Below are positions 1 through 13,657 of a stretch of 20,208 nt of DNA, in pieces (the stretch's first letter is position 1; each line of letters starts with the position of its first letter). The position numbers and the translations under genes were made by a program. The notes beneath the pieces were generated by a model, which saw only the letters and a list, made by a program, of their open reading frames with translations, was not told the origin of the DNA and did no database searches. The DNA is from a virus, in IMG/VR virus record IMGVR_UViG_3300011261_000007, positions 1 through 20,208 of that record, one strand, 5' to 3'.

Positions 1-802
1 TGATGTTAGGGACATAGCGGGCATAGCCGTAACAGAGCCAACGTCCCAGTTGGACAAGTCGGGGTTGGCAAAGACTGCCCATAAGAACAAGCCGCTCATT
101 TGCGTGGCAGAGCCAACTTCCCAGTGTGAAACATCGGGGTTTGCGACTGATGCACCTAAGAACATGCCACTTATAGAGGTAACAGAGCCAACGTCCCAGT
201 TTGAAACATCGGGGTTTGCCAACTGCCGATCTAAACATGCCGTTCATAGCAGTTACCGCCCCGAATTCAACCGCGACTGTAGCTGATGTGGTCATATTGG
301 CGCAGCCGAAGAAGCCGCCGTTAAGGACAGTTAAGCCGATAGGAACCCAGTTGCTTACGTCCTTAATCTTCAACATATCACCGGCATCATTAAATGACCA
401 CTTCGGGCACGTGCCATCAATAGTTATCTCGTATGTATCGGCAGTAGCATATACGTGGGACGGGCTTGGGGTGGTTACGACCTCAATGGCAGAGCCGTCC
501 CCCCAATCTACCGTGAAGTTATTGCTGGCTGATGTGGCCGGTAGGGTGATAGTCTCGCTAGCGGCAGTGGTGTCCCACGTGGTGATGAATGATAACGATG
601 GCGCGGGGAGAGGTGTCGCGCCTATATATGGAATATATTCAGCCTCCATAGTTGAGATGTATTCCTGCGCCGTTTTGATTTCTCCAGCTATGCCGCTTAT
701 CAATGCTCGAAGATTAGACCCAGCTATGTTTTTAGCGTCGAATGTCTTCCCGTTTGGGAGGTATTTCGCTATAGAGTTTGCGTGGTCTTCGCGGCTCGCC
801 AT
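1..802 (-). CDS. Tail-tip/receptor-binding protein: gp48-like anchor plus PKD-like and BspA (DUF285) repeats; partial, frameshifted
   Basis: The ATG at 802 overlaps the stop of the upstream baseplate J-like gene (TAATG), so the start is firm. The gene runs off the left edge. Residues 1-57 look like the short N-terminal region of Mu gp48/YmfQ-type baseplate proteins (YLPNGKTFDA, then GSNLRALISGIAGE). Residues about 68-130 read FITTWDTT, ITLP, FTVDWGDGS and HVYATADTYEITI, the PKD-like lead-in that usually precedes BspA-type surface repeats. From about residue 148 come 25-26 residue repeats of the DVSNW...GMF type. Near 214-232 the repeat is two bases short, so the frame that begins at 802 leaves the repeat frame (it reads GKPRCF instead of NPDVSNW). 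The repeat resumes in the +1 frame down to the window edge. The starting frame also stays open to the edge. This is probably the receptor-binding or adhesion protein at the baseplate tip. The frame break could be a sequencing indel, a real inactivation, or recoding. Confidence 0.72.
   Translation of the reverse strand, partial: MASREDHANSIAKYLPNGKTFDAKNIAGSNLRALISGIAGEIKTAQEYISTMEAEYIPYIGATPLPAPSLSFITTWDTTAASETITLPATSASNNFTVDWGDGSAIEVVTTPSPSHVYATADTYEITIDGTCPKWSFNDAGDMLKIKDVSNWVPIGLTVLNGGFFGCANMTTSATVAVEFGAVTAMNGMFRSAVGKPRCFKLGRWLCYLYKWHVLRCISRKPRCFTLGSWLCHANERLVLMGSLCQPRLVQLGRWLCYGYARYVPNI
29..251 (-). repeat. 75-nt tandem repeat encoding 25-residue BspA/DUF285-type units (75, 75, 73 nt)
   Basis: Three consecutive units start at 29, 104 and 179 on the plus strand, each with the block GAGCCAAC(G/T)TCCCAGT and then TCGGGGTT about 20 bases later. 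On the minus strand a unit reads ANPDVSNWDVGSVT...GMF. The first two units are exactly 75 nt and the third is 73 nt, which breaks the reading frame. A more divergent 78-nt unit (26 residues) precedes them in transcription order, at 252-329. These are protein-coding repeats, not a CRISPR: there are no unique spacers between identical repeats. Confidence 0.85.
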
Positions 803-2349
803 TAGAAGGTCACAGTCCCTTTTGTCGCAATCTCACCGGAGTTTATCGCTATATCGCCAGACGGGGCGGATAGTTCAAAGCTCAGCACGATGGCCCCGGT
901 ATCAGGATCAACGGCGTTCTTGATGGCGGCCCGGTACGCGTCCTCATCTACATCAGCGCCAACGGTTGTTTCCTCATCATGAAATTGCGCGATATTTTCC
1001 TCGACTGCTGCCCGCATTGTCGGGGTGTCGGGGCTTAACGCCGTGAATGTGTAATTAACAACGACGGCTGTAGGAGCTTTGACAATATTATCACTAGATG
1101 CCGTATTGGCTGGCCTGATTGAGTCGATAGCATCTTTCACATCCTGCACTTCTGATGCCGATGGGATTGTGGTTGCGTCATTATCACGCATGAAAAATGT
1201 CCGCACCTGCCCGAGCGGGATCGATGTTGCAGCCGATATAGTGCCAGTTGCTGGCGTTGCTGGCGCTCCAAACACGACGTAGTGAAAAGTTGTTGAGCTT
1301 TCCACGATTATCCTGACGTTGCTTGCATTGTATTCAGTCTCAGCGGCCCCGGTGATTGACGTTTCCTGCCCGTCATCGAAGCCATGGGCTGAGGAGGCCA
1401 CCACTGTTGCAACATTCCCTGACCGCGTGATTGATGATACTGAAATAGTACCGATCTCAGTACCAGCAGGCTCAACAAAGACTCTTGTTACTCCTGGCAC
1501 TTCTTTTGCTTTTGATGAAATGTCCGACTCATTGAAGTGGGCCACGGGGTTTCTGATCTTTTCGAGATACCGCAGCCTGTATTCTTCTAGCGCCTCCTCA
1601 TCTGTCCCACCGCCAACCGCGCCGAAATCAACGTACAAGGTGTCATCAACCCCAGCAATCGGGCTTTGCAAGCTTAGCGGGGTATCGGCGTCAAGATTTG
1701 TAGCAGCACCAAACCCTGTTGACTCTATGTCTACGGTTCCAAGGGTATAAGACGCAATGATAGTGCCGGTAGCAGGGGTTGCTGGCGATCCAGCCACTTG
1801 ATAGGTGAATGACGCAGCACCTGTGACGACTATTTCCGCGTTCGTGAGATTATATTCGGCCTGTCCTGCGCCTGAAATAGTAACAGGGATGGCAGAAGCT
1901 AGGCCGTGATCGCTCGCGGTTGTCGCGGTGGCCGTGGTTCCGCTGCGAGTAATTGACAAGATGTTGATTGCTTGAGCCGCGATCATCACGCTTGAGGTTG
2001 TGACAAACTCCTCGCCGCCAGCTGGGAGAGTTACGCCGATCCCAATTGATGCGCCCGGCGTGCCTGTGGCTGCTGCGCTTCCCGATGACTGAGATGCTGG
2101 AGTCTTTGGGCCAACGTAAATATCGCCCCATTTAACAGCTGCTTCGTCGTCCGCTGTATCAGGGAATAGACGTGTCTCAGTCCGGCGCAGGTCTTGGTAA
2201 AAGTCAAATATGCGGCGCGCTATCCCGGCGATCAGAGATCGGAGCCAGTGAACCCGGAGATAAGGGTTTGAATCCGGCGCTTCTCGCGCAACATCCGCCT
2301 TGATCCTGTCCTCAACCTGCCCCGTGCTGTCTGGTGTTCCAACTGACAT
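802..2349 (-). CDS. Baseplate J-like wedge protein (Mu gp47 type) with two inserted beta modules
   Basis: This 515-residue protein is expected to form part of the baseplate wedge linking the hub to the tail fibres. The J-family signatures are present in order: LFPDTADDEAAVKWGDIY near residue 61, the LSLQSPIAGVDD segment near 225, the GGTDEEALEEYRLRYLEKIR segment near 247-266, VPGVTRVFV near 284, TFFMRDND near 384, and LSPDTPTMRAAVEENI near 438. Two copies of one small module of about 70 residues interrupt this backbone, at about 128-200 and 302-374. Each begins SITRSG, carries a His-Gly pair about 14 residues later, and ends PATPATGTI. The family is normally nearer 350-390 residues, and the insertions explain the excess. 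The ATG overlaps the stop of the gp46-like gene (TAATG), and its own stop overlaps the next ATG, so translation is probably coupled. The family call is secure; the role of the inserts is unknown. Confidence 0.9.
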   Translation of the reverse strand: MSVGTPDSTGQVEDRIKADVAREAPDSNPYLRVHWLRSLIAGIARRIFDFYQDLRRTETRLFPDTADDEAAVKWGDIYVGPKTPASQSSGSAAATGTPGASIGIGVTLPAGGEEFVTTSSVMIAAQAINILSITRSGTTATATTASDHGLASAIPVTISGAGQAEYNLTNAEIVVTGAASFTYQVAGSPATPATGTIIASYTLGTVDIESTGFGAATNLDADTPLSLQSPIAGVDDTLYVDFGAVGGGTDEEALEEYRLRYLEKIRNPVAHFNESDISSKAKEVPGVTRVFVEPAGTEIGTISVSSITRSGNVATVVASSAHGFDDGQETSITGAAETEYNASNVRIIVESSTTFHYVVFGAPATPATGTISAATSIPLGQVRTFFMRDNDATTIPSASEVQDVKDAIDSIRPANTASSDNIVKAPTAVVVNYTFTALSPDTPTMRAAVEENIAQFHDEETTVGADVDEDAYRAAIKNAVDPDTGAIVLSFELSAPSGDIAINSGEIATKGTVTF

Positions 2350-2795
2350 TAGAAATTACCCGTATTGTCCCATATTGCGTAGAATCTCCGATCTACAGGA
2401 GACCCGCCACGGAATAGATTGATATTCGCGCAGACTTTCCCGGCATTTAGGAATGGCTGCTCTACCGCTGTATTCACCGCTATTTCGTCGCCGATGAGCC
2501 ATTGTAGCCCGTTGTTGACGACCACGCCAAGCTCCGCCAAAACAGACCCTGTAACGCGCTCCTGCTCGAACATCCACGCCTTATTGCCTTGCTCGAAATC
2601 TGGAGTTGTTTCATTCCCGATCCAACCTCTGCGCCTGTCTGATTCTGGTATTTCAGTGCTGCTCGCCCTCACCTCCTCAAACAAAGACATGAGAATAGCA
2701 GTGTCCAAGCTCTCGATCATTGAGATGTCGCCGCTATCAGTCCATTCTATATCATAATAGCCTTTGCTATTAACAATCTTTACATCAGTTGTCAT
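2349..2795 (-). CDS. Baseplate wedge protein, Mu gp46-like (gp25/W-type)
   Basis: This is a 148-residue protein of the phage GP46 family, which helps initiate sheath assembly at the baseplate in Mu-like phages. The family hallmark is visible as DRRRGWIGNE near residues 53-62, followed by GNKAWMFEQERVTGSVLAEL near 70-89. The N-terminal strand DIEWTDSGDI is also typical. It overlaps the spike gene by four bases (ATGA at 2795-2792) and the J-like gene by one base. Its place between the gp45-like spike and the gp47-like wedge protein is the Mu order. Length and motifs are complete, with no sign of damage. Confidence 0.88.
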   Translation of the reverse strand: MTTDVKIVNSKGYYDIEWTDSGDISMIESLDTAILMSLFEEVRASSTEIPESDRRRGWIGNETTPDFEQGNKAWMFEQERVTGSVLAELGVVVNNGLQWLIGDEIAVNTAVEQPFLNAGKVCANINLFRGGSPVDRRFYAIWDNTGNF

Positions 2796-3337
2796 GCGTG
2801 TGGACCGCCTGTATCGACTTCAGTATCGCCGCGCGAGTCGTTGGCTTGCGAGTGTATGTGATTAGCCATCTCGACCCCTCCCACTGTTAATGATGACACT
2901 GCGGCTACTGTCGCAGCAGTTGACGTGCCGGTGGTGGTTGTATTGCCACCGACAGCCAGGTTGCCGTCAATAGTAGCATTACCGCTTATATTAGTCTCAG
3001 CTGCCGTGATATTTGCAACTGAGCATGTGATATTTACACCGCTTTCGCCAGCGTCAATATCAAGTGTTCCGTCATTTCTTGCGATGATCCGGGTATTTGT
3101 CTCTGGGTGAAAGAATACCGGCTCACCTCGGCCTAGGTCGCCTGGTCTTTTCACTGTCACCGGTATTGAGTATCCGTTCCCAAAAGTTCGCACCCTGGCA
3201 CCATCTGGCAAATCACAATACAATCCATAAGGGTAAATTATAGTGTCATCACCAACGCGCCCTAGAGCAGATGTCTGCTGGTTTGGGAATGTCTTTCCTT
3301 TGTCTTTGCCGGTAATCCTAGCCCAAAGAGAACGCAT
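2792..3337 (-). CDS. Baseplate spike / assembly protein V (Mu gp45-like)
   Basis: This 181-residue protein should form the trimeric membrane-piercing spike under the tail tube. The N-terminal half (about residues 25-80, from SALGRVGDD to GLGRGEPVFFHPE-like sequence) corresponds to the OB-fold region. Residues about 83-150 are a run of short Gly/Asn/Thr-rich strands expected of a triple-stranded beta-helix (GNATIDGNLAVGGNTTTTG). Near the C-terminus NHIHS supplies an H-x-H pair; in P2 gpV and related spikes such a pair binds an iron ion at the tip. The start at 3337 lies 20 bases inside the end of the hub gene, and the stop overlaps the gp46-like gene. The family assignment is good; metal binding is inferred from the motif. 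Confidence 0.85.
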   Translation of the reverse strand: MRSLWARITGKDKGKTFPNQQTSALGRVGDDTIIYPYGLYCDLPDGARVRTFGNGYSIPVTVKRPGDLGRGEPVFFHPETNTRIIARNDGTLDIDAGESGVNITCSVANITAAETNISGNATIDGNLAVGGNTTTTGTSTAATVAAVSSLTVGGVEMANHIHSQANDSRGDTEVDTGGPHA

Positions 3338-4418
3338 CGTTCTGGTCTCCTATCGGCTTCTGTGAAAGGATTAAATCATCAATCGTATAACCATCCTTCT
3401 CCACGAACTCAAGCGATGTGGCTGTTGGCTGCCCTTCTCCCTGGGTGAATGTAGCGGTATTCAGGAGCATCTTTCTACTGATGTCCGCGACATCTGAATT
3501 AACCTGTACTAGCGTATTCACATCCCACAGCCCGCCATTTGGCTTCTGATGCCCTTTGACGCTGCAATTGAACCGCGTAGCCCTCGATTTTGCCAGCTGG
3601 TTAGACCACTTTGCCCTGTCTTTCAGCTGCTCGTTGCTGTAGCTCTTTTCTTCAACGACAACACGCTGCCGCCCTTCTCGGATAGACGAATTGGTGACCC
3701 TACCGCCCTGATCAACAGCAGCCACAATGTCGGTGGAGCCTCCGAAGTTCAAAGCGGCAGGGTCTAACTGGCCCCTGTGGATGTATTTATTAAACTCTTT
3801 TGAGCCGTCAATGATCCACGATTGGGATATGATATTGTTTGAGCTTGAATTCACAAGCCTCTGCACGGTAGCGCCTGAGTCGGATGGTGAGGATTGAGTG
3901 ATGACTATATCCCCGGCACCGTTAGATGTTAGCAGCGCCTGTCTTTTCCTTGAATAGATGGCGGCAAATTCCGCCGCCTTCTGCCCAATTTCAGGCCTTA
4001 TCGCATCCTCTGCAACGTTGAACGGCTTTGGATTTACGTTATCAACGACCACTATGTCGCCACCGATATTCTCGATTGCTATTTCTATAATCCGCTTTAG
4101 CGTCAAAGTACCGTTAGCGTTTAGGTCAGGTATTTGGTCAATGGTTGAATCAATGAAATCACCCGTCTTGTCTCTCCCTGAGTATGTGACGATATGACTG
4201 CCCTCTTGATCTGCCCCATTAACCTCGTCAATGTACCCAGTGAGCACCCTGGTTGAGTCAACGGTAACCACGATGGGGTCTCCCCTCTTGAATGGCGGGA
4301 ACCCTGTTACAGCGCTGGCTGAGAACTCAAAGTCATTAGCCATCGTCTCAAGTGATACCGTGACCTTTGCAGCCACGAAATCAGTATAAGGTACGCCATT
4401 GACGACAAGCTCGATCAT
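3318..4418 (-). CDS. Baseplate hub protein, Mu gp44 / P2 gpD-like
   Basis: This 366-residue protein fits the baseplate hub, a ring at the base of the tail tube that carries the spike. It opens with a short beta-rich region (MIELVVNGVPYTDF), then FPPFKRGDPIVVTVD and VLTGYIDEVN, the pattern of the gpD/gp44 barrel. The phrase IVTYSGRDKTGDFIDSTI near residues 79-96 is characteristic. The C-terminal half has a conserved GGLWDVNTLVQV segment near 296-307. It overlaps the gp43-like gene by four bases (ATGA) and the spike gene by 20 bases. Its position after a DNA-circularisation-type protein and before a gp45-like spike repeats the Mu order. The call is confident at family level. Confidence 0.87.
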   Translation of the reverse strand: MIELVVNGVPYTDFVAAKVTVSLETMANDFEFSASAVTGFPPFKRGDPIVVTVDSTRVLTGYIDEVNGADQEGSHIVTYSGRDKTGDFIDSTIDQIPDLNANGTLTLKRIIEIAIENIGGDIVVVDNVNPKPFNVAEDAIRPEIGQKAAEFAAIYSRKRQALLTSNGAGDIVITQSSPSDSGATVQRLVNSSSNNIISQSWIIDGSKEFNKYIHRGQLDPAALNFGGSTDIVAAVDQGGRVTNSSIREGRQRVVVEEKSYSNEQLKDRAKWSNQLAKSRATRFNCSVKGHQKPNGGLWDVNTLVQVNSDVADISRKMLLNTATFTQGEGQPTATSLEFVEKDGYTIDDLILSQKPIGDQNDAFSLG

Positions 4419-5605
4419 GCTGAAAGAATCCTTATCTCTCCCTCAACAAAGGCGTTCTGCTTGATCCCGTTCAGGTCAGCGATAATGTCGAACAATTCAG
4501 TGTTGCCATAATACTTGTAGACAAGAACCGACAGCGGGATAAGGTCTGTCTCTATCGTGACAATAGATCTTGTTGTGACTCGCGCTCCAGACAGCGCCTC
4601 CTGGGCAGCTACGCGAACCCGATCAAGCAACTCCATTGCCTCATCTGTAACCAGCTGATTATCTCTGATGTCAGAATATTGATCTTCTAGCGCCTGCTGA
4701 GCCAGGTCGAGTTCATCGGTTGTATCATACTCAATCAGTGATGCATTAACGTAGGCATAGCTAAGAGCCTGCGTCCTTATGTTGGAGCGCATCCGGTCTC
4801 TGTTTTCCTTGCGCTCAGCCCTGCTAACCGTGCTGGTATTCACAATCGGGTCTGTGGCACCAAAATTAAACATGCTTTTAAGAGCGCCAAGCGTCTCGCC
4901 AGGTGTCTCATATAGATTATTCAATGACTCATACAGGCCCGCCGTGCTCTCCGCTAAGTCTGCTGGGGCCTCAATCAATGCCCCTATTTTCCCTGATACG
5001 GCATTGATTCGCGCCTTCATTTCAGCGGCTTTCTCGGCTGTTGCCGTGATGATCGTTGACGCGCCCCCAAAGGCTTCCACCATGCCGGATACGTTGTCGA
5101 GCGCATCGGTGAAGTTTGACGGGGCATTCGCTGAGACCTCATAGTTATCTTCGAGATCCGTCTCTAGCTGAGCATTAAGCAGGCTGCTTTCCTGCTGCAC
5201 CCGAGAAGCCAAAGCGCCTGATTGCTGCGGGATGCCAGGCGAATCATTGACCTCGAAAGGGATCGTTATCTTGGCCCGCCCAAGCTCGCTAATTACTTCT
5301 GTTAGCGTATAAACTCCGTTAATGACCTTCTCAACATCTCCGAATGTCGGATGAGTTAATACGCCCTCTTCCCCATCCTCAAGCACCCGTAGCAGGTTGT
5401 CGCGCTCTTGATAATAGTTCTCATGCGGAATCCATACGGCAAGAGTAAATGCCCGTGGGGCTTTTCCCTGAACCTCTATGGCCTGCTTGTCAGCGCCTGG
5501 GTAGTTGAACTTTATTAAGCGATTGCCGCCGGTAGTCGATGCATCCTCGAAAAGGAGATCAACGCCCTTGTACTTCGCCGCCTTGAGTTGGATTAAATCA
5601 GCCAC
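4415..5605 (-). CDS. Mu gp43-like DNA circularisation/tail protein with C-terminal LysM-like segment
   Basis: This 396-residue baseplate-proximal tail protein belongs to the family named for the DNA-circularisation protein N. The N-terminal domain (about residues 1-120) shows YKGVDLLFEDAS, RLIKFNYPG, the stretch ending YYQERDNLLRVLE, and GVLTHPTFGDV, all typical of that family. The centre is helical and Ala-rich. The C-terminus has YKYYGNTELFDIIADLNGI, resembling a LysM or tail-protein-X-like fold that may contact peptidoglycan or the hub. The start is GTG at 5605, eight bases inside the tape-measure gene, and it fits the N-terminal family alignment. Despite its name, its role in virions is structural at the tube-hub junction. 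The stop overlaps the hub gene start. Confidence 0.85.
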   Translation of the reverse strand: MADLIQLKAAKYKGVDLLFEDASTTGGNRLIKFNYPGADKQAIEVQGKAPRAFTLAVWIPHENYYQERDNLLRVLEDGEEGVLTHPTFGDVEKVINGVYTLTEVISELGRAKITIPFEVNDSPGIPQQSGALASRVQQESSLLNAQLETDLEDNYEVSANAPSNFTDALDNVSGMVEAFGGASTIITATAEKAAEMKARINAVSGKIGALIEAPADLAESTAGLYESLNNLYETPGETLGALKSMFNFGATDPIVNTSTVSRAERKENRDRMRSNIRTQALSYAYVNASLIEYDTTDELDLAQQALEDQYSDIRDNQLVTDEAMELLDRVRVAAQEALSGARVTTRSIVTIETDLIPLSVLVYKYYGNTELFDIIADLNGIKQNAFVEGEIRILSA

Positions 5606-7127
5606 CTGTAGCCATCCCTACGTCTGCCCTACGGTTTCCAGCACCAGCTATGGTGGCCGGTGCCATCTGCTCTAGCCCTGGCGCAAGCCCTACATTCACG
5701 CCAACAGCAACCCTTGACCGCAACATGTCAGCGGCTGCGCTTTGGTCGGATGCAATTTTGCTCTCGCCAAACCCAAGGAACTTACCGCCAACATCAAATG
5801 CGCCGGTTAAGTCGAATTGCGAGAAATCCATTGTGGCTATTGCTGCCGCTATTTGTCCAAGCGTTGTGGCAATTCCTTTGAGCATGGCAAAGAATGGCTT
5901 CAAGACACCGATGGCTACATTTATCACGGCGGATAGAGTCTCACCAAGACCGGCCAAGATAACGGCGAGGCCTGATAGGGCCATGCCGAACACCTCAATA
6001 TCTCCAGCATCAAGGCTATCTATAAACCTCTTTATTGTGCCCGCTAGAATTCCCGCACCACCCTCTGACTGCTTAAATGTCTTTATTATCTTCTCATTCA
6101 TCAACACGCCAATAGCCTTCATCCGCGTACTGAATGTTGCCATTCTTACGTCGGCTTGATCTTTCGCCGTATTTGTTCCCCTCAACTTTTTCTCATACAT
6201 GCCAAGGAATTTGACGTTATCAATAAGCGCAAGTCCAACTTTTGCATGCTCCTCACCGAATATTTTGGCCTCCAACTTGGCCCGCGCTGTGCTGTCCTTT
6301 GCCCCGTCTATAGCCTTTTTTACTATCTCAAATGAGCCTTGCAATCCAACCTTCTTGAAATCGATGCCAAGGCGGCGCATTCTTCCAAGGATTGAGTTGA
6401 GCGCGGTTCCGGCCTTCTCAGCCTTGATGCCGCCTTTCGCGGTCGTTTGGATGGCCGCATTTAGCTGAAGGAAGCTAAGGCCAGCAGCCTTTGCCGCTGG
6501 GCCTGCTATCGTTGCAGCAGCCCCAGTCTGGGCGATTTCGGATGATCCGAATTTAGCGCCAGCCGCTAGAATATTGACGAACTCATTCGCCCTGCTTGCA
6601 TCGGCTCCGAACTGATTAAGGCTTTCTGCCGTTATCTGCGCAGCGGAAGCAAGCTCTATGCCTGATGCGTTCTTCAGGAGGAGGACAGATTCAGTCGTCT
6701 TTGTCAGTAGATCGATATTGTCTAGCAGTGCTGGCTTAGCAGAGGCCACTAATTTTATCGCTGTTGCAACCTCTGACTGAGATGCAACGTAAGTCTTTGA
6801 CATGGAGAATATTCGACCCTCAAGGAAACTCAGATCTTTTCCTGTCGCGCCGGTTATTGCAGATAGATCGGCCATTGAGTCTTGAAACTTAGTCCCAATG
6901 TCAACTATCTTCTTAATGCCCAAAGCAAACCCAGCCGCTGATATTGTTTGAGTTACCCAGCTTTTAGCGAGTTTCTTTCCTTTCCGCTTTAGTTGGTCGA
7001 ATATTTTTGTAGTTCTAACGCCTTCCGTGCCGAGATTCCTCATAGCCCTAGCTGCGTTGTTTGCTTGGCGAGACAGGGCGTCCCTTGCCTTGATCAGGTA
7101 CTGAACTGTAAAGCTCTTATTCGCCAC
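5598..7127 (-). CDS. Tail tape measure protein (TP901-type core)
   Basis: This 509-residue protein sets tail length and is expelled with the DNA. Residues about 80-300 match the phage minor-tail/TP901 tape measure core (FQDSMADLSAITGATGKD, LVASAKPALLDN, GAAATIAGPAAKAAGLS). Residues about 378-432 are strongly hydrophobic (GLAVILAGLG, VINVAIGVL), as in other tape measures. The family rule of about 0.15 nm per residue suggests a tail near 75 nm, which is an inference. The start is GTG at 7127, preceded by GAGAGGG at a good Shine-Dalgarno distance. It lies 11 bases inside the chaperone frameshift extension, so translation may be coupled to that product. It overlaps the gp43-like gene by eight bases. 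Confidence 0.9.
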   Translation of the reverse strand: MANKSFTVQYLIKARDALSRQANNAARAMRNLGTEGVRTTKIFDQLKRKGKKLAKSWVTQTISAAGFALGIKKIVDIGTKFQDSMADLSAITGATGKDLSFLEGRIFSMSKTYVASQSEVATAIKLVASAKPALLDNIDLLTKTTESVLLLKNASGIELASAAQITAESLNQFGADASRANEFVNILAAGAKFGSSEIAQTGAAATIAGPAAKAAGLSFLQLNAAIQTTAKGGIKAEKAGTALNSILGRMRRLGIDFKKVGLQGSFEIVKKAIDGAKDSTARAKLEAKIFGEEHAKVGLALIDNVKFLGMYEKKLRGTNTAKDQADVRMATFSTRMKAIGVLMNEKIIKTFKQSEGGAGILAGTIKRFIDSLDAGDIEVFGMALSGLAVILAGLGETLSAVINVAIGVLKPFFAMLKGIATTLGQIAAAIATMDFSQFDLTGAFDVGGKFLGFGESKIASDQSAAADMLRSRVAVGVNVGLAPGLEQMAPATIAGAGNRRADVGMATGG

Positions 7128-7295
7128 TGCTTACCCTCTCTGAAACGGCCTTCATGGCATCGCTTATCTCTTTGACAACTTCATATGTGGCCGACTCTAT
7201 GTAGTCAACAGTTATAGATCCCTGTGACGCTATGGCAAGCTCGAATATTGATTTCCTATACCCTGGCTCCCCTAGCTCCCTGATGTCGTCATAAA
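7117..7295 (-). CDS. -1 frameshift extension of the tail assembly chaperone (GT-type), 58 residues
   Basis: After the chaperone frame closes at TAG (7274-7272), the -1 frame stays open from just after a TGA near 7325 down to TAA at 7119-7117. It reads YDDIRELGEPGYRKS and continues with a helical, charged sequence ending SERVSSGE. No ATG, GTG or TTG precedes most of this frame, so it should be reached only by frameshifting. A slip at TTT (7295-7293), which can re-pair with TTT one base back, gives a 204-residue fusion (146 + 58). The place, between tube/chaperone and tape measure, is where lambda G/GT, P2 E/E' and Mu gp41/41' frameshifts occur. Without this reading, 7128-7271 would be an unexplained gap. 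The exact slip position is inferred. Confidence 0.8.
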
Positions 7296-7730
7296 AGTTC
7301 CGATGTACATCTTCAGGCTGCGCTCAATGTCGGTATATGACATACGGTCATATAATGGCGCGGTGATCTTCTTCTCGCCTGCCATCTGCGCTGAACTGAC
7401 TAGGATTTCTTTAAACGTAACCATGACCTTCTGCATGTCAGCGCCGCCACTTGTCAGCATTGCAAACATGCTGTCGCCGATGTCTTCAGGTGAGCTTTCG
7501 TCATCAGCTTTCTCGGCGGAATCATCCCGCGCATTCTCAATCGCAGACTCTAAATCAAGCCCCTTGATAGCATTCGTGGTTGCCGCGCCGATCTCTGCCT
7601 TGATAATTGACACAAGATGCGCAATCTTTCCTGTTGGCTGCGAAATGGTGATGTGGCTGCCTTCTATCTCGCCGCCAGTGCCTGGTGAATACATGACTGG
7701 ATCAGTCAACTCTACCGTGATTTCTTTCAT
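7272..7730 (-). CDS. Tail assembly chaperone, Mu gp41-like (short form)
   Basis: This 152-residue protein directly follows the tube gene and precedes the tape measure, the standard site of the chaperone that coats the tape measure before tube polymerisation. It begins ITVELTDPVMYSPG, a short N-terminal strand pattern often seen in Mu-like gp41 proteins. It is acidic in the centre (residues about 63-85) and ends with helix-rich sequence (YDRMSYTDIERSLKMYIGTF). GGAG lies about seven bases before the ATG at 7730. The short form ends at TAG in 7272-7274; a -1 shift just upstream gives the long form. The call rests mainly on position and the frameshift arrangement, since the sequence itself is weakly diagnostic. 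Confidence 0.78.
   Translation of the reverse strand: MKEITVELTDPVMYSPGTGGEIEGSHITISQPTGKIAHLVSIIKAEIGAATTNAIKGLDLESAIENARDDSAEKADDESSPEDIGDSMFAMLTSGGADMQKVMVTFKEILVSSAQMAGEKKITAPLYDRMSYTDIERSLKMYIGTFMTTSGS
7293..7299 (-). promoter_or_regulatory. Candidate -1 ribosomal frameshift site (A ACT TTT)
   Basis: In the chaperone frame the codons are GGA ACT TTT ATG. A -1 slip lets TTT re-pair perfectly with TTT, using the last T of ACT. The preceding codon re-pairs imperfectly (ACT to AAC). This is not the canonical X-XXY-YYZ heptamer, but it is the only homopolymer-based slip in the overlap between the TGA near 7325 and the TAG at 7274. No clear downstream pseudoknot was identified by eye. Confidence 0.5.
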
Positions 7731-7782
7731 AACAACTCCGACATTGCTGAATTAGTGCCGCCTATGGTAGCGCGGCTTGATA

Positions 7783-8190
7783 TTAACTTACTGCGAGTGG
7801 TGCGCCTGAGAACTCAATAGGAACCTTGCCTTCGTTCTGAATGGCTTTCTCAGGGTCGTTTGTCATAACACCTTGGGTCAGAGTCCGCCCAAGACGGTTA
7901 CCGGCTGCATCGGTGCCAGAGACGCGCACGACACGACCAGCACCTCGCGCCTTGAAGTCTCGCGACAGGTTCAATGACGCAACGGATGCGGGCATCTCGA
8001 ACTTCACCATTCCGATCTTGGTGGTGACGTCCTCAGATGTAACCACGACAACGCGCCCGCCGCGTGATGCGGCCTTGGTGGTTGATTCTCCGTTGCCCTC
8101 AACGATGACGATTGTATTACCCTCAACCGTTACCGCCTCATCATCAACCTCGATAGAGGCATCGACTAGAATTAACTCTTGATCAGCCAT
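7783..8190 (-). CDS. Tail tube protein (Mu gp40-like)
   Basis: This 135-residue, strand-rich protein lies directly after the sheath and is expected to form the inner tube of the contractile tail. Short beta segments (DASIEVDDEAVTVEGNTIVI, GGRVVVVTSEDVTTKIGMV, PIEFSGAPLAV) and the size fit the small tube proteins of Mu-like tails. A perfect AAGGAGG Shine-Dalgarno lies at 8204-8198, overlapping the sheath stop codon, six to eight bases before the ATG. That fits a protein needed in many copies. The function is inferred from order, size and predicted beta content rather than a diagnostic motif. Confidence 0.82.
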   Translation of the reverse strand: MADQELILVDASIEVDDEAVTVEGNTIVIVEGNGESTTKAASRGGRVVVVTSEDVTTKIGMVKFEMPASVASLNLSRDFKARGAGRVVRVSGTDAAGNRLGRTLTQGVMTNDPEKAIQNEGKVPIEFSGAPLAVS

Positions 8191-12273: not shown

Positions 12274-13392
12274 TTACTCCTGGTGCCCTTGGGCCTTCAT
12301 CGTGAATGTGTTTATCCCAAGATTTGCAACTGGGTCTGTTACATATAGCTCAATCCTGTCGCCGGTAGCTCCATCGAGCCGAACAATAGCCCCGGCCGCA
12401 GTGAATGTCCCTCGACCACTAGTGCCGAATAAACCCTGACCACCAGATCTATCGTCAAATTCGACGTTGTACATGTCTGCTTTAAAATCACCCATCCGCT
12501 TCCAGTTTGTGAATGTGCCGTATTGGCCGTCTATCCTTGCCCGAAAAAGGATTCCGTTTGCGAGCGCAGGGATTCCACCAAACGTCCCGAGATCGCCTTT
12601 TGAATCATGCGTCATCTCGAACAGTATCCGCGTCTCGTGCCACACCTCGCCAACTTCCGGGCCAACCCAGTACTCTTGTGGAGCCGCCATTGTGCCGTCT
12701 TGTGACACCATATTTATAATTGACTTTTCTACCTCGTCGCCAATGTCGTGCGGGATGTCCAAATATCTATCTAGCGTGAACGTAGCGGGGCCGGTTGGCG
12801 CAGATATGGCCGTTATCATGGGGTGCGTGGTTTCTGGCGATCCACTATTCATGTGGAGGTAATCATTGACGGCAAAGCCAGTCGCGTCTAGCACGTCTAT
12901 TTCGTATGCGGAGCCGCCAGCAGGCACGGAAGCCGCGAGCGTCGTAATCAGCCCGGTATGCTGATGAAAATACTTGTTCACTATCTTAGTATGGACGTCT
13001 GCATTATGGACGCTTAGGACGTGAGCGCCCGTCTCTGCGCTGTAATAGGCGTCCAGCGGATTCCCGAACCCGTCGTGCATGCTTGCCCGATTTACCGGTG
13101 AGAAGCCTTCTCTCGATTCCGTGGTGATACTCAGAAGCCCGTCGCTACCTTGGCAATAAGCCCACGCGCCAGGGTCTCCATCACTGTTCTGGAGGCTCAC
13201 ACTAGGGGGTCTTTTTACGATGTTGTACGCGTCATGGTCTGGTGCTGGCTCTGCTGCCTGCACCGCAAGATACACGTCCGCATCCCCAGAATTCTCGATG
13301 GTCAGTCGTGTACCTACCGTTAACCCGGTCAAGGCATACAGATCTACCCACTGATTCTGAGGAACAATAATATTCTGTAGGTTGTCAGCCAC
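12274..13392 (-). CDS. Probable virion structural protein of unknown role (372 aa)
   Basis: The start is GTG at 13392, supported by AGGTGA five bases upstream in the tail of the terminator region. The first 85 residues look like a beta-sandwich (NQWVDLYALTGLTVGTRL, ENSGDADVYLAVQA, GDPGAWAY). A middle region reads YEIDVLDATGFAVNDYLHM and FTLDRYLDIPHDIGDEV. The C-terminal part has FGGIPALANGILFRAR, TNWKRMGDFKADMYNVEF and ends FTMKAQGHQE. I recognise the overall pattern from uncharacterised phage structural proteins but know no function. It lies between the capsid genes and the adaptor, just after the terminator, so a head decoration, head fibre or neck role is possible. The call of structural protein is inference from context. 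Confidence 0.6.
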   Translation of the reverse strand: MADNLQNIIVPQNQWVDLYALTGLTVGTRLTIENSGDADVYLAVQAAEPAPDHDAYNIVKRPPSVSLQNSDGDPGAWAYCQGSDGLLSITTESREGFSPVNRASMHDGFGNPLDAYYSAETGAHVLSVHNADVHTKIVNKYFHQHTGLITTLAASVPAGGSAYEIDVLDATGFAVNDYLHMNSGSPETTHPMITAISAPTGPATFTLDRYLDIPHDIGDEVEKSIINMVSQDGTMAAPQEYWVGPEVGEVWHETRILFEMTHDSKGDLGTFGGIPALANGILFRARIDGQYGTFTNWKRMGDFKADMYNVEFDDRSGGQGLFGTSGRGTFTAAGAIVRLDGATGDRIELYVTDPVANLGINTFTMKAQGHQE

Positions 13393-13438: not shown

Positions 13439-13657
13439 TTACTTCTCAGCGTCGCCGCTGCCTTCGTCCGCCTTGGTCAAATCAATCGCATTTTTCTCGC
13501 CGATCTTTCTGACCTTCTTTCCAAGCCTTTCAGCAGCAGCCTCTGCCAGCACAATCTCTGTGCCTTGGGGGATATGCTGAAGCTTACCTGCAACTGCCAG
13601 GTATAGCTTTTTGTGATCAACCACGTGGGTTGGCTTCTTTGGTGCTGCCATAGTCAT
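13439..13657 (-). CDS. Small protein downstream of the major capsid gene, function unknown (72 aa)
   Basis: This is a 72-residue, Lys- and Ala-rich protein without a signal peptide or membrane segment. The core QHIPQGTEIVLAEAAAERLG followed by KKVRKI looks like a small beta-alpha unit, and the C-terminus is acidic (ADEGSGDAEK). AGAGG precedes two possible starts, ATG at 13657 and ATG at 13651; the second has the more usual spacing. It begins six bases after the capsid stop and ends just before the terminator, so it should be co-expressed with capsid. Small proteins in this position are often head accessory proteins, but I do not recognise the family. Confidence 0.65.
   Translation of the reverse strand: MTMAAPKKPTHVVDHKKLYLAVAGKLQHIPQGTEIVLAEAAAERLGKKVRKIGEKNAIDLTKADEGSGDAEK

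Follow-up and report, generated by a model that had tools for sequence, protein, structure and literature searches.

A baseplate gene at the end of a viral metagenome contig loses its reading frame inside an array of DUF285 repeats. The break lies in a repeat unit of 73 rather than 75 nt; it is unique in the contig and among the relatives, and homologous arrays elsewhere are intact. The most likely cause, with a probability of about 0.5, is an error of sequencing or assembly local to the contig edge. Two bases would then have been lost accidentally, and not by a programmed event, from a single unit of a DUF285 array whose 75-nt period is regular elsewhere, and the array gene would encode a gp48-anchored, probably receptor-binding baseplate protein.

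The window analyzed is the whole of IMG/VR virus record IMGVR_UViG_3300011261_000007, a fragment of 20,208 bases. Head and contractile-tail genes are found on its minus strand. Baseplate J and GP46 were named by Pfam match; the genes that we take to be terminase, portal, sheath and tape measure were named from gene order, length and our own reading. The frame-broken gene is the last one before the contig stops at position 1 (Table 1).

Table 1. Features of the frame-broken gene, in window coordinates.
Feature	Position	Strand
Frame-0 ORF beginning at ATG 802, with no stop before the contig end; encodes a gp48-like N-terminus, a PKD-like domain and the first part of the DUF285 array, followed by 74 codons without homology	2..802	-
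First ~58 residues; homology to the Mu gp48-type baseplate wedge proteins whose genes come immediately after baseplate J in relatives	629..802	-
PKD-like domain and repeat-array cap; frame -3; ~66% identical to G001/L002	224..622	-
Frame break; the homologous relative goes from frame -3 to frame -1	219..224	-
Rest of the DUF285 array (NPDVSNWDV repeats), read in the +1 frame and cut off by the contig end	1..222	-
73-nt unit holding the frame break and one CCC-CGA site	179..251	-

Repeat units on the minus strand occupy 252-326, 179-251, 104-178 and 29-103, the second of these having 73 bases and its neighbours 75. These boundaries reproduce the unit starts (plus-strand 29, 104, 179 and 252) and lengths (75, 75 and 73 nt) of the original prediction, and TRF detected a 75-nt array at 22-219. 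The 25-residue periodicity of the DUF285 repeats is interrupted at the 73-nt unit relative to the start codon. The repeats carry on in the +1 frame from about 222, where a TTG begins the shifted ORF. Pfam DUF285 (PF03382) matches in the +1 frame only (E = 4.8e-16, 59 bits against a gathering cut-off of 25), and no Pfam match to DUF285 was obtained in frame 0. The earlier description of the repeats as DUF285-type is borne out by this profile match, and so is the proposed shift from the frame of ATG 802 to the +1 frame, in which both the motif and the match lie. Frame 0 is family-like up to MFRSAV (the intact relative L002 has MFRGASAANP and MFRSASAANP) and, as had been stated, stays open to the contig end. 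In tblastn searches the single 270-aa open frame of this relative (G001/L002) matches the window in frame -3 at 622-224 and in frame -1 at 219-13, which places the change of frame at 219-224 and narrows the interval of 209-251 that was correctly given before. The 20.2-kb fragment stops within the array, and the break, 220 nt from the contig end, falls in the terminal 1.1% of its length.

Three contigs share the PKD-like module, L002 and L003 at 69-70% identity and L004 more distantly. Module and array form one open frame of 270 codons in L002, and this frame runs through the homologous unit. Among the relatives fetched, the WDV motifs are exactly 25 residues apart in 369 of 391 cases and 24 residues apart in 8 (2%), and none of 139 neighbouring motif pairs has a spacing at the DNA level that is not a multiple of three; some loci overlap, and hence these counts are not fully independent. 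One relative locus, L039, has an array that changes frame, and a run of N stands at the change. In this Aquimarina contig (about 5530-5637) near-identical sequence is found on both sides of the run, which is a scaffold gap or masking. An exact-pattern search of viral contigs with the junction, a DNA-level search of phage records with window positions 1-8000, and a DNA-level search of plasmids with the tail module each returned no match. Judged from these sequences, the frame break is not a family trait. The original prediction held that an intact frame through this repeat in relatives would mark the break as a local event, and an intact frame is what the comparison found.

After the break the window differs from L002, read in the +1 frame, at 29, 14 and 43 sites in codon positions 1, 2 and 3, and the changed codons are synonymous in 24 cases and not synonymous in 33. 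In the frame-0 register, synonymous changes account for just 3 of 53 changed codons. Neither decay nor stops were seen in the +1 frame after the break. This pattern indicates that selection maintained coding in the shifted (DUF285) frame until very recently. Since the downstream DNA keeps a coding signature in the shifted frame only, the break would be either recent or an error. The signature is also compatible with a bypass by recoding, without calling for it.

The 74 codons that remain open in frame 0, and the TTG start of the shifted ORF at 222, could be taken to mean that the gene is overprinted or split, the out-of-frame C-terminus or the TTG ORF being a real product. This is very improbable, as the frame-0 tail matches no family, the substitution pattern backs the shifted frame alone, and the equivalent register of L002 is full of stops, with stops in every unit. 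When 73 codons were resampled synonymously, the frame-0 register stayed open about 5% of the time, a chance of openness (or a greater one) that codon usage alone provides. The units are copies of one another, which raises the effective chance and brings it closer to that of a one-unit event. The open frame-0 register is weak evidence and lends no support to a second protein.

Programmed +1 recoding at AAA-CCC-CGA had been offered as another option. Some ribosomes would slip on CCC-C and make the full DUF285 array, and others would make the alternative C-terminus. Both frames do remain open, and CCC-CG is documented as a +1/+2-prone sequence for E. coli tRNA-Pro (PMC4519876). CGA, which follows the run here, is the rarest arginine codon of the contig (4.1 per 1000), and CCC-CGA is met three times in frame 0, at codons 196, 221 and 246 (numbering from 0). 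Frame 0 thus reads the pair in every unit, which sharpens the earlier remark that CCCC in the other repeats weakens recoding. Yet the intact tail-sheath gene has an in-frame CCC-CGA that is read straight, and seven further in-frame CCC-C sites are also read straight. The +1 slippage reported for CCC-C in E. coli reaches 1% directly after the start codon, the most shift-prone position (PMC4519876). The arrays of relatives stay in a single frame and have units of 25 residues (L002 reads AAT-CCT), whereas a slip at CCC-C would yield a unit of 24. Downstream structure was rejected as a recoding stimulator, the stability of the RNA being no greater than that of shuffles (z -0.35 and +0.86). No 0-frame stop occurs within 220 nt (74 codons), compared with an average distance of 26 nt in the SEA-PHAGES set (PMC10885494). 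Conservation of the +1 site and of the shift was not found in the relatives. The array break resembles the programmed -1 frameshifting of phage tail chaperones in that two frames are open where a possible slippery run occurs, but it lacks the conservation, the nearby stop and the structure. Together with the straight reading in the sheath gene, these features make recoding improbable. Less probable still is a binding switch at the level of translation, in which a +1 slip at one of the three CCC-CGA sites would give virions with both array-bearing and array-free baseplate proteins.

Elsewhere the contig keeps its frames. Genes of four relatives (G003-G006) match the remainder of the window in single frames and at full length, the check being partial at 12274-13392 and 13439-13657, where relatives are poor. 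This whole-window check gave no sign of a generally error-rich contig. The only other frame change, at about 7314-7280, falls in the tail-assembly-chaperone overlap, and its -1 arrangement is also present in G003 and G004. The tail chaperone is the standard case of a programmed frameshift (PMC10885494), and the overlap of this contig (about 7314-7132) is a conserved -1 arrangement, unlike the array break. The conserved overlapping extension occupies 7132-7314 on the minus strand, and its slip site reads AACTTTT in the window and AAATTTT in G003 and G004, so that it looks less canonical here. The minus-strand gene at 12274-13392, located between head genes and neck genes, encodes a protein of 372 residues; relatives were found for its first part only, and the remainder has no match in G003-G006.

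The two accidental causes named in the original prediction, error and mutation, are both supported by the intact frame of the relatives at this site, so that a sequence error or a one-off mutation, rather than a new mode of making protein, is most likely. A local error is favoured because the break lies 220 bases from the contig end in a tandem array, and because the contigs of two relatives with the module also end at the array: L002 (6391-6733) inside it and L003 (5638) just before its expected start. Exact repeats in the L002 array reach 61 nt, a length sufficient to interrupt short-read assembly. Against an error, the longest identical stretch shared by the window units is 23 bases, so that the visible part is not badly tangled. 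Mis-joining of in-register units was rejected as the cause of the 73-nt unit, as it preserves the 75-nt register and alters only the number of units. The loss of two bases is, moreover, neither the commonest Illumina or homopolymer error nor typical for short reads.

A genuine recent indel is also quite possible, and we rank it not far behind the local error. Beyond the first array unit such an indel would put the rest of the protein out of frame, with the binding module lost or truncated, and could represent either a prophage copy in decay or a variant with altered host range. The unit is indeed 73 nt in the contig, a length that simple in-register assembly errors do not produce. Tandem repeats readily undergo real slippage and recombination, and a very recent event would be consistent with the undecayed sequence that follows the break. 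However, a broken allele must dominate to reach the assembled consensus, and the site adjoins the contig end. There is also no sign of a decaying element, since every other structural gene that has relatives is intact.

The architecture of the gene is more curious than the indel. The gene occupies the slot of the Mu gp48-type baseplate wedge protein (PF10076, phrog_203) after baseplate J, and the "tail-tip protein" of the original prediction can be specified accordingly, with the qualification that only the N-terminal ~58 residues of gp48 are kept. These residues are 41-59% identical to the gp48-like genes of relatives, and an in-frame switch to the PKD-like/DUF285 module follows, which replaces the rest of gp48. 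When tested against full-length gp48, only residues 2-58 align (phrog_203, E = 0.052), whereas relative L005 matches over the full length; PF10076 gave no match to the N-terminal fragment. Wherever the gene is readable in relatives (12 of 12), it encodes a full-length gp48 of about 200 residues. The module of L002 and L003 instead carries a short N-terminus of its own. The in-frame fusion of gp48 N-terminus and module (620-802, minus strand) could be real domain shuffling or an assembly join, the latter being less likely because both sides share one frame.

The repeats of the shifted frame are the same 25-residue NPDVSNWDV units as in DUF285/BspA-type proteins (PF03382) of phages and bacteria. 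Similar arrays occur in 98 phage records and in bacterial genomes, and in L002 and phage KZY1 the array is likewise preceded by a PKD-like domain. The window array differs from these in being out of frame with its own start and in having one unit of 73 nt. The fold predicted without an alignment for an intact relative (L028:10570-11355) is a moderate model with a mean pLDDT of 61, rising to about 80-90 over the repeats, and the modelled regular array of short strands is consistent with a solenoid. From the gene architecture, a binding module may be attached directly to the baseplate wedge, and the protein probably binds a host receptor. A literature search for gp48 together with BspA found nothing.

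The main consequence of the frame break is for annotation. Automatic gene calling would predict a protein of 267 residues whose last quarter is meaningless, and the DUF285 binding array in the baseplate gene would be missed. Recoding, if true, would be a new way of varying a phage adhesin, but the evidence is against it. If the break is real, it would constitute a natural loss-of-binding allele.
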